From an uncultured Flavobacteriales bacterium (GTDB lineage: Bacteria; Bacteroidota; Bacteroidia; Flavobacteriales_G; Salibacteraceae), in the NCBI GenBank assembly GCA_937899835.1, contig CALCCE010000252.1:1-64000 (forward strand): 64,000 nucleotides of DNA, read 5' to 3'. The notes beneath the pieces were generated by a model. It did no database searches, was not told the DNA's origin, and was given only the letters and a program-made list of their open reading frames with translations. The position numbers were made by a program, and so were the translations under genes. This document shows positions 20,691 to 31,631 of this stretch, piece by piece (within the stretch, counting starts at the first letter, position 1; every line of letters begins with the position of its first letter).

Positions 20691-21164
20691 TTATAGCTCT
20701 AAAATCTGCCTTAATAAACGGTCTTTGCTATTGAAGCTCTCTTCCAAAGAAATCGTACTGTCGGTTCGGAGTACCCCGGGAATGCGGTTGATTTGGTCGA
20801 TAACTGAACGTGCATGTCGGGTATCGCGACAGAGAATTTTACAGAAGATGCTGAAGCCGCCAGTAGGCAGATGCGCCAAAGTGATTTCTGGAATACTCTC
20901 TAAAATCGTGGTGATATCGCTCCACTGAGAAGTTTCGTGGGTAATGATTCCAACATAACCGGTGAATCCATATCCTAACAAGGAGTAGTCTATCAGTAAG
21001 TTCGTTCCTTTAATCAGGCCTGCATTCTCCATTTTTTTAACCCTTCCCTGCACAGTTCCCGGAGAAACGATGAGCTTTTTAGCGATTTCTGCGAACGGGA
21101 TACGAGCATCTTTCATTAGGTAACTCAGTATTTCCCGGTCTAATTTGTCGATTTGGTATTTCAT
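20691..21164 (-). CDS. Lrp/AsnC family transcriptional regulator
   Basis: 157-residue regulator with N-terminal winged HTH (LDREILSYLMKDAR, AEIAKKL, SPGTVQGRVKKMENAG) and C-terminal RAM ligand-binding domain (GYVGI, HLPTGGFSIFCKI, IPGVLRTDSTI). The ATG at 21164 matches the family start, MKYQIDKLD; an ATG at 21182 would add six residues. It probably binds an amino acid and regulates itself through the inverted repeat at 21206-21242. The downstream permease pair is a possible target. Confidence 0.92.
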   Translation of the reverse strand: MKYQIDKLDREILSYLMKDARIPFAEIAKKLIVSPGTVQGRVKKMENAGLIKGTNLLIDYSLLGYGFTGYVGIITHETSQWSDITTILESIPEITLAHLPTGGFSIFCKILCRDTRHARSVIDQINRIPGVLRTDSTISLEESFNSKDRLLRQILEL

Positions 21165-21205
21165 TAGAAGATATATCCTCAAAAAATATTGAATCAGTAG
21201 AATTC

Positions 21206-21242
21206 AACAGTAAAAAATCTTGATTGAGCAAAAATTACTGTT
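21206..21242. promoter_or_regulatory. Inverted repeat upstream of the Lrp-type regulator
   Basis: AACAGTAA (21206-21213) and TTACTGTT (21235-21242) form perfect 8-bp arms 21 bases apart, centred about 60 bases upstream of the regulator start. Position and A/T-rich spacer fit an Lrp-type autoregulatory site. Function is inferred. Confidence 0.5.
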
Positions 21243-21603
21243 TTCCTCATCAAAGATGATAAAATTTGGCACTTAGTGTTATATTTACACCACCAAAACG
21301 TAGTGATGAATTTCAGGTTAGTAAAATGAAATTTGAATGACGCTGTTTTCTTCCACTCCAAGTTCATTTCCCGACGGGGCGTCTGAAGGAGATTGCAAAT
21401 GAGTTGGTTTGAAAGTTATTGTCGGAGCCAAAGTAAATTGAACAACAGCGAATCAGCATAACCTTGCTTTTTCCAAGAGAAAGAAACGGGAACGGGGAAA
21501 CCCAACTCGCTGAACATGAAATTTTTGCAACGACTGCAATGCAGATTAATCATTAGGACCTGCCTGATGTTCATCCCACGTTTGATTTATATGGAATTAA
21601 AAT

Positions 21604-21667
21604 TCCAACCAGCCGGACTTAACATCCATTGTTTTTCCTGGGTCCGGGTGTAAACCGGCTGGTTGGA
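21604..21667. repeat. Hairpin with perfect 13-bp arms
   Basis: TCCAACCAGCCGG (21604-21616) and CCGGCTGGTTGGA (21655-21667), perfect arms around a 38-base loop. On the minus strand the right arm is followed by AATTTTAATT, so it could also act as a minus-strand terminator for distant transcripts. Confidence 0.75.
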
Positions 21668-21689
21668 TCTTTATACGTTCTTAAGAAAT

Positions 21690-21776
21690 TTTGCCTGCGC
21701 GAAGAAAGCCGCAACCACCCGATATTCAGCACTTTTCTGTCCGCTTGGTGTTTCGAGTGGTTTCTTCCCGGGCAAA
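21690..21776. repeat. Compound hairpin with three stacked stems
   Basis: TTTGCC (21690-21695) pairs with GGCAAA (21771-21776), GAAGAAA (21701-21707) with TTTCTTC (21761-21767), and CCAC (21715-21718) with GTGG (21757-21760). Internal loops of 5x3 and a 7-base bulge separate the stems. Confidence 0.6.
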
Positions 21777-21841
21777 CTTATTAAAGATACCCAATGGCTT
21801 CTGTTTTGATTTAAGCGATCAGAGGTCGGGATTAGCGTGAG

Positions 21842-21875
21842 AAAGGTCAGTTGTTTATACAAGTGACCTTTTTTT
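21842..21875 (+). terminator. Strong intrinsic terminator
   Basis: AAAGGTCA (21842-21849) pairs with TGACCTTT (21864-21871), enclosing a TTGT/ACAA inner stem, followed by a T-run to 21875. It overlaps the stop codon of the convergent gene at 21874. The T-run shows it stops a plus-strand transcript from the gene-free stretch. Confidence 0.88.
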
Positions 21876-22338
21876 ATGCCCTTACCAGATCAGGGAGCCA
21901 GGCCTTTGTGAAAAAATGTTGGACCCTCTTCCACTCTTCTTTAGTGGCAAAGAAATGGTAATGTTCTTCGGTAATGGTTTTCAACCACCACTGGCCTTCC
22001 ACCTGCACATCCAAGTCATCAGGAGTTTTGTAAAGGGTTTCGAGCCGTAGTTCTTCTACCTCCAACTTATTAAAAACCAATCCGTACACACTCGTGTTCA
22101 CGTTTAGACGTAAGATCAACCCTTTGGGCAGCACTTGAAGGTTTACCCTTTCGGCGGCTGAGAATCGCTTTTTCAATTGATCGAGCCCATCATGGCCGCT
22201 TTGATACCTAAGTCGTGGAGAGCCACTCCCGCCCATTTTAAGGTTGGCGACAAAGCCGAAAGGCTTACCAACAATGCCTCTGATCTCTTCTTTGGTCTTA
22301 CGATCGTTGTGGCTGAGGTTGTATAGTTTTCGCTGCAT
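21874..22338 (-). CDS. Hypothetical protein
   Basis: 154-residue soluble protein of mixed charge, no signal peptide or membrane helix, no motif I recognise. The N-terminal 30 residues are basic; the centre alternates strands (LQVLPKGLILRLNVN, VYGLVF) and the end is rich in Trp and aromatic residues. Start at 22338 is preferred because a -7-like box (GATTTTTG, 22351-22358 on the minus strand) lies just upstream; ATG at 22353 would fall inside it. It is divergent from the glycosylase gene with about 55 bases between starts. Confidence 0.72.
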   Translation of the reverse strand: MQRKLYNLSHNDRKTKEEIRGIVGKPFGFVANLKMGGSGSPRLRYQSGHDGLDQLKKRFSAAERVNLQVLPKGLILRLNVNTSVYGLVFNKLEVEELRLETLYKTPDDLDVQVEGQWWLKTITEEHYHFFATKEEWKRVQHFFTKAWLPDLVRA

Positions 22339-22392
22339 CTCCCCTAACAACAAAAATCATTTTGCTTTGTTGGAAAACACAAAGTCTAAAGC

Positions 22393-23175
22393 ATGCCAGA
22401 ATTACCTGAAGTTGAAATCTTTCGCCGGTACTTTGAACGCACCTCTCTGCAGCAATCGGTAACCCAAATTGATTTTTTAGATGATAAGGTATTGTCTACC
22501 GATGCAGCGGAAATTGAATCGGCCCTGGTCAATCATACGTTCTTTGCCACCACACGTATTGGCAAATATCTTTTTGCCCAAATCGACTCAGGAAAGTTTC
22601 TATTGTTTCACTTTGGCATGACGGGCTCTCTGAGCTACTACCAAGCCTCCATCGACCCTCCTAAATTCAGTAGGCTAATCATCCAATTCGATACCGGCTA
22701 TCATCTGGCCTTTGTTTGCCCAAGAAAATTTGGAAGAATAGAATTGGTCACCAACCTCAAGGAATACCAGGGCAAGAAAAAGTTAGGCCCTGACTTTTTG
22801 ACCATCGATAAAAATGGGTTTAAAACAGCCATTCAAAAAAGGATGACCAAAATAAAACCGGCTCTATTGGAGCAAAAACATTTTGCAGGAATTGGCAATT
22901 GGATTGCGGATGAAATGCTTTTTCAGGCTAAAATTCACCCTGAAAGGCTATGCAAGTCTCTTACTAATCGCGACTTGAACCTGTTGTTTAACTCCGGCAT
23001 ACAAACCATCGAAGAAGCCATTGCTCACGACACTCATTACGGAAGCTTTCCGGATTTTATGTTCGTCAACCACCGAAAAGAAGGGGCCAAATGTCCACGG
23101 TGCGGTGCCGAAGTAATCCGCATGGTAGTCGGCGGACGCGGAACCTTTATCTGCACCAAAGAGCAAAGGGCTTAG
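22393..23175 (+). CDS. Formamidopyrimidine-DNA glycosylase family protein (Fpg/Nei), altered zinc finger
   Basis: 260-residue DNA glycosylase/AP lyase for oxidised bases. The catalytic N-terminus reads PELPEVE (Pro2 after Met removal, Glu3), followed by RIGKYLF with the conserved Lys, HFGMTGSL, and the helix-two-turn-helix region GIGNWIADEMLFQA. The C-terminal zinc finger has Cys234, Cys237 and Cys254 but the position of the fourth ligand is Glu257 (ICTKEQRA), so one zinc ligand is missing. Stop codons overlap those of the convergent zinc-finger gene (23172-23175). Confidence 0.92.
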   Translation: MPELPEVEIFRRYFERTSLQQSVTQIDFLDDKVLSTDAAEIESALVNHTFFATTRIGKYLFAQIDSGKFLLFHFGMTGSLSYYQASIDPPKFSRLIIQFDTGYHLAFVCPRKFGRIELVTNLKEYQGKKKLGPDFLTIDKNGFKTAIQKRMTKIKPALLEQKHFAGIGNWIADEMLFQAKIHPERLCKSLTNRDLNLLFNSGIQTIEEAIAHDTHYGSFPDFMFVNHRKEGAKCPRCGAEVIRMVVGGRGTFICTKEQRA

Positions 23176-30783: not shown

Positions 30784-31269
30784 TCAGGTTCTGGGAATAG
30801 AAAACTCATAGGATGGAGCAGAAAGTGCTCCCGTATTCGTGAGGTTATCGTCAGGAACGCTAAATACAAATGCTTTGTACTCAATTCCGGGCCGCACAGG
30901 GTCTCCTTCGTTGTCGAAAACAATGGTATTGATCGGTACTTGATAAGAGCCTTGTCCAGACCGTACTTTTAGAAAGCAACCGTCACCCAATTCTTTCGCC
31001 TTGGTGGAGTTGAAGCTGAGTGACAACACCGATTTAACCAGCACCACCCTGTATTCCCTAACTCCATAGGGGCGAAAACCGCTTTCGAATTGGATGGCTA
31101 TTGTTTTATCCTGGTCTTTCGCATGAATGCTTGGTACATTGGCGGGACTTGCTGTAACGATCTGACTCTTGGTAAATTGAGAAGCGGTGTCCTCTTTCGT
31201 ACAAGAGACGAACAGGCTGGTAGCAACACAAATTGCTGCTACTGCCAGAATGCGTTTGGAATTTGGCAT
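30784..31269 (-). CDS. Small lipoprotein of unknown function
   Basis: 161 residues with signal peptide and lipobox LFVSC at about residues 19-23, followed by a beta-rich domain. No known domain recognised. It converges with the XRE gene and is followed upstream by a 362-base gap. Confidence 0.75.
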   Translation of the reverse strand: MPNSKRILAVAAICVATSLFVSCTKEDTASQFTKSQIVTASPANVPSIHAKDQDKTIAIQFESGFRPYGVREYRVVLVKSVLSLSFNSTKAKELGDGCFLKVRSGQGSYQVPINTIVFDNEGDPVRPGIEYKAFVFSVPDDNLTNTGALSAPSYEFSIPRT

Positions 31270-31631
31270 TTTTTATATGGGGCTTGGGGTTAAAAAGCAA
31301 AACGAAAAGGTTGGTGAGCAGTGTTAGATATGCACATTTTCTACCAGTTTTTTGGGCGTGTTTGGATGTCCCACCAGCATGAGAACATTTTTAACTTTAA
31401 TCAAACGGCGTCTTTTAGACTTGGGGTATCACCGTGGCGGATAGTAAGCTATCCTGGTAGGCTTGAGCCAAAACAAAAACGAATTTTGTTCCAACTACTT
31501 GTATCAAAATTCAGAAAAAAAGTTAACTCAACCTGACGTGATCGGAATAAATCCTGACGAATTGCAAAACAATAACCTCAAGACAACAAGAAGCAGAAAT
31601 AGCTTAGCAAAAGGCAAACCTTGGATTTACG
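31270..31631. other. Intergenic region, no gene seen
   Basis: Holds a possible -7 box for the lipoprotein gene (CAAAACGA at 31298-31305, minus strand TCGTTTTG, 7 of 8). A small hairpin GGATAG/CTATCC occurs at 31439-31454. No plausible ORF or RNA motif otherwise. Confidence 0.4.

Follow-up and report, generated by a model that had tools for sequence, protein, structure and literature searches.

Introduction

In Bacteroides thetaiotaomicron, dRNA-seq has revealed 49 intergenic small RNAs (sRNAs) with terminators, 27 of which are strain-specific, and northern blotting confirmed nine of the eleven intergenic candidates tested (PMC7366714). The sRNAs of this species have a GC content of about 35%, and Bacteroides possesses no obvious homologue of Hfq or ProQ (PMC7366714). 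Like trans-acting intergenic sRNAs of the Bacteroidota such as GibS (BTnc035), the candidate described here lies between protein genes in DNA without an ORF of note, carries hairpins in its middle region and has an intrinsic terminator at its end. It differs from these RNAs in being known from sequence alone and in having no clear promoter, and a relation to GibS itself is not claimed. In addition, the GC content of the region (40–47% at positions 21300–21870) is higher than that of the B. thetaiotaomicron sRNAs, which counts against an sRNA. The size of 6S RNA, a few hundred bases, would also fit the locus. However, the candidate does not fold into one long hairpin interrupted by a central bubble, and it was not found in related genera, in which 6S RNA should occur. 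Since the intergenic sRNAs with terminators of B. thetaiotaomicron are often strain-specific, a lineage-specific sRNA is the expected kind of RNA here. We propose, with moderate confidence, that the locus holds a plus-strand intergenic sRNA gene of this lineage, whose putative untranslated transcript would be about 280–590 nt long.

Results

The window analysed is a stretch of 64,000 nt from an uncultured Flavobacteriales bacterium, whose 6.9-Mb draft genome encodes TonB receptors and MacB-like permeases among its genes and is the only member of its genus among the genomes searched. These genes, together with the TAnnTTTG box enriched in the genome, indicate a member of the Bacteroidota. Within the window, a non-coding gap of 691 nt (21183–21873) is flanked on both sides by minus-strand genes, namely the divergent gene of an Lrp/AsnC-family regulator (20691–21182) and a convergent ORF of 159 aa without a named family (21874–22353), next to which lies a plus-strand formamidopyrimidine-DNA glycosylase gene (22393–23175). 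The 159-aa ORF has no Pfam or NCBIfam match; relatives with 26–32% identity are found in eight other genomes of the family, and together they represent a small uncharacterised protein family. A rough hexamer-based gene caller delimited 406 positive gaps in a 709-kb sample of this genome, and the gap ranks among the eight longest of them. Its first part (21183–21300) is AT-rich (28% GC) and looks like an ordinary Lrp promoter, while the GC content of 21300–21870 is near-genic.

The gap had initially been described as gene-free, and this description holds for both strands: its best six-frame hexamer score is 12.2, compared with a shuffle mean of 13.9, and real gene pieces of 691 nt reach a median of 108 and a minimum of 42. 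A six-frame Pfam search of the gap gave no match, nor did NCBIfam for three of its small ORFs; the plus-3 frame matched no protein in 149 relatives, and the gap matched none in 709 kb of its own genome. The gap may encode a short translated peptide.

On the plus strand, an intrinsic terminator with an interrupted stem and seven T is located at 21839–21875 (stem within 21839–21868, T-run at 21869–21875). The initial annotation had called it a perfect terminator closing a plus-strand transcript; the terminator is indeed there, on that strand, but its stem of 11 bp and 4 bp contains one G/G mismatch. The hairpin folds with a z-score of about −6 to −8, and its T-run shares its last bases with the stop codon of the convergent minus-strand ORF. 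Upstream of the terminator, the nearest gene lies at a distance of 660 nt, on the opposite strand. To place this arrangement, all terminators in 709 kb of this genome were scored, with those having at least six T in eight bases and lying outside genes classed as strong. Behind a co-directional gene, at a median distance of 32 nt, lie 41 of the 43 strong extragenic terminators; the two others are a bidirectional hairpin that also serves an opposite-strand gene and the terminator at 21839–21875. That no plus-strand gene precedes the latter, as initially noted, is thus correct and a rare situation in this genome. At a looser cut-off (five T), seven of 60 terminators are orphans, five of them beside the end of an opposite gene. 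Convergent gene stops that abut the terminator of another gene also occur in this genome (at 2, 5 and 9 nt). In the minus direction, the tail of the hairpin is only TTTCTC and the stem lies about 3 nt past the stop codon of the ORF; on these grounds, and because orphans are so rare, the terminator at 21839–21875 most likely ends a plus-strand transcript.

Elsewhere in the window, a further plus-strand hairpin with six T (31307–31351), upstream of a minus-strand ORF (30784–31269), failed the stricter terminator filter. In a distant relative (L100, 1470–1535), a terminator very similar to ours, AAGGTCAGTTG..CAACTGACCTTTTTT, follows an S-adenosylhomocysteinase-like gene and likewise abuts the end of a convergent ORF; this weak match to the gap was discarded as chance or coding.

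Three hairpins precede the terminator. Stem A (21604–21667) is a perfect 13-bp inverted repeat, TCCAACCAGCCGG/CCGGCTGGTTGGA, around a 38-nt loop that contains an inner 6-bp helix. These arms, reported at the outset, are not a product of chance, as none of 300 shuffles produced such a repeat; in 50 kb of intergenic DNA, stem A is the sole arm of at least 13 bp with a long loop, and its folding z-score is −4.3 to −6.0. Stem B (21690–21776) is a compound hairpin (TTTGCC../..GGCAAA, GAAGAAA/TTTCTTC and CCAC/GTGG), which exists as initially proposed but is of modest strength (z = −2.5 to −2.9). Stem C (21785–21836) is a weak hairpin (z = −1.3 to −1.4) that folds on the plus strand only (−14.0 kcal/mol, versus −6.0 kcal/mol for its complement). 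The folding of stems A and B gives no hint of the strand, whereas that of stem C points to the plus strand, as does that of the whole region (z = −3.9, compared with −2.6 on the minus strand). For 21596–21878 on the plus strand, the z-score is −6.0, or −3.9 without the terminator. Among 44 other long gaps, each represented by one 260-nt segment and just 16 shuffles, the better strand had a mean z-score of −1.75 and a lowest value of −5.33; since six of the 44 reached −4 or lower, structure by itself is not rare in this genome. Long gaps with z-scores of about −5 are L047 1358–2132, L070 8905–9215 and L064 15168–15489, and a 17-bp inverted repeat is present at L064 15234–15277.

The left part of the region (21290–21600) is no more stably folded than shuffled sequence (z = −1.2), and single 120-nt windows within it reach −2.4 at most. 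Two of the four helices listed in the initial annotation are therefore unsupported: GAGTTGG/CCAACTC (21401–21508; 7 bp, about 94 nt apart) is present, but its arms are not paired with each other in the minimum free energy structure of the whole region, and the 4-bp GACG/CGTC (21373–21383), also present, falls in the part that folds at chance level. Non-random structure is limited to about 21596–21875, so that of the structure suggested for a non-coding RNA at 21290–21875 only that of the 3' half is borne out. The candidate RNA is probably this 3' half and not a uniformly structured RNA of 585 nt.

A weak promoter-like site on the plus strand (21256–21285), ATGATA-18-TATATT with TG before the second box, is a tentative transcript start and the only promoter candidate on this strand. 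It also contains TATATTTA, which agrees with the Bacteroidota −7 box TAnnTTTG at five of six fixed positions; promoter-like sites of this kind are no commoner in the gap than in shuffles. The TAnnTTTG box is enriched before genes in this genome (47 versus 23), and the plus strand of the gap (21183–21873) has no full box of this type and no complete sigma-ABfr promoter, which counts against the sRNA reading.

At the DNA level, nothing convincingly resembles the gap elsewhere in its genome, among 100 relatives or among 395 members of the class. Stems A and B were also cast as a covariance model, which finds close relatives only, being built from one sequence; searched against 35 genomes from the family and 295 from the class, it matched no second locus. 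A search by neighbouring genes (the Lrp gene and the 159-aa ORF, GTDB 220 collection) showed the gap to be kept in no relative; in related genomes, the divergent neighbour of the Lrp gene is a different protein gene. The gap has no Rfam match at gathering score, and phages, plasmids and viral contigs contained no match to it. The Rfam and covariance searches suggested with the initial annotation, and the DNA searches, have thus yielded neither a known family nor a homologue, in up to 395 genomes at the DNA level and 295 with the covariance model; this lack of homologues, and hence of covariation, counts against the sRNA reading. Two further weak matches in distant genomes, 23 bases within an ATPase gene (L002) and one in a ribBA gene (L099), were discarded as chance or coding.

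Known RNA and DNA elements were likewise considered. The 6S models RF00013 and RF01685 found no match in the gap or elsewhere in this genome, leaving 6S RNA unsupported as the identity of the gap. As RF00013 found none in any of the 35 family genomes either (E 0.1 or better), its miss in the gap is uninformative; the 6S RNA of this family is either too divergent for RF00013 or missing. An integron attC site, suggested by the terminal GTTGGAT of stem A, was set aside: the opposite box, TTCCAAC, does not fit the attC consensus RYYYAAC, and the arms carry no extrahelical bases. A retron RNA was set aside as well, no adjoining reverse transcriptase gene having been seen.

Discussion

An intergenic sRNA is usually recognised by three features: an orphan terminator, a gap that does not code and, beside the terminator, hairpins that are not random. 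The orphan terminator of the gap and the adjacent non-random structure are best explained by an untranslated plus-strand RNA with its 3' end at 21875, and we infer its transcription from these features. We propose the following hypothetical course of events, in which (i) transcription would start somewhere between about 21285 and 21600; (ii) the polymerase would read stems A, B and C in turn; (iii) it would stop at the T-run of the intrinsic terminator (21869–21875), releasing the untranslated RNA; and (iv) this RNA, protected by its hairpins and terminator, would act in trans as a base-pairing regulator, with unpaired stretches, such as the stem A loop, making contact with target mRNAs. The base-pairing role is probable by analogy with the intergenic sRNA class and does not derive from evidence on the gap sequence.

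The main alternative given in the initial annotation is that the gap is the leftover of a plus-strand gene decayed past recognition, of which the terminator and chance pairing remain. We retain this as a rival, although no coding trace was found, and consider it rather unlikely. The gap is gene-sized and near-genic in GC content from 21300 on; its hexamer score, however, lies at the shuffle mean, and in simulated decay a score as low as this was reached by just 5% of cases at 20% substitutions and by 20% at 40%. The different protein gene beside the Lrp gene in related genomes is consistent with decay, as is a 37-nt stretch (21384–21420) that is 87% like part of the ribBA gene of a distant relative and in which the expected frame is broken; against this, about 0.06 such matches are expected by chance over the genomes searched. 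The lack of Pfam matches in six frames and of protein matches in the relatives or the genome itself also argues against decay, and a strong 13-bp hairpin would be unexpected in decayed coding DNA. Instead, the hairpins could belong to minus-strand RNA: the terminator hairpin would then serve the end of the 159-aa ORF, whose 3' tail, or else a long Lrp leader, would contain stems A and B. Both flanking genes are indeed on the minus strand, the folding of stems A and B is about as good there as on the plus strand, and the hairpin directly follows the stop codon of the ORF. We nevertheless regard this as unlikely, given that the tail on this strand is just TTTCTC, that other strong terminators stand about 30 nt from the stop codon (8 nt for the closest listed), that stops abutting the terminator of another gene are known both here and in L100, and that the AT-rich 21183–21300 resembles an ordinary Lrp promoter.

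It is very unlikely that stem A is a DNA element, either a regulator-binding palindrome or a mobile-element remnant, with no tie to RNA. A repeat of this form, perfect over 13 bp and with a long loop, could also be left by an insertion or mark a paired protein site, but the element is single-copy, with no second blastn match in the genome and the arm pair occurring only here, it is not matched in phages, plasmids or viral contigs, and the orphan terminator would be left unexplained. Highly improbable, finally, is a large (about 585 nt) structured non-coding RNA of a class absent from Rfam and restricted to one Bacteroidota-type genus, perhaps linked to the divergent Lrp/AsnC regulator.

In summary, our analysis points to a plus-strand intergenic sRNA candidate in the gap beside the Lrp/AsnC-family gene. 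Because few strong terminators in this genome lack a co-directional gene, an orphan one can usefully flag transcripts missing from the annotation. If transcribed, the candidate would represent one more lineage-specific sRNA in a phylum in which sRNA regulation is little explored.
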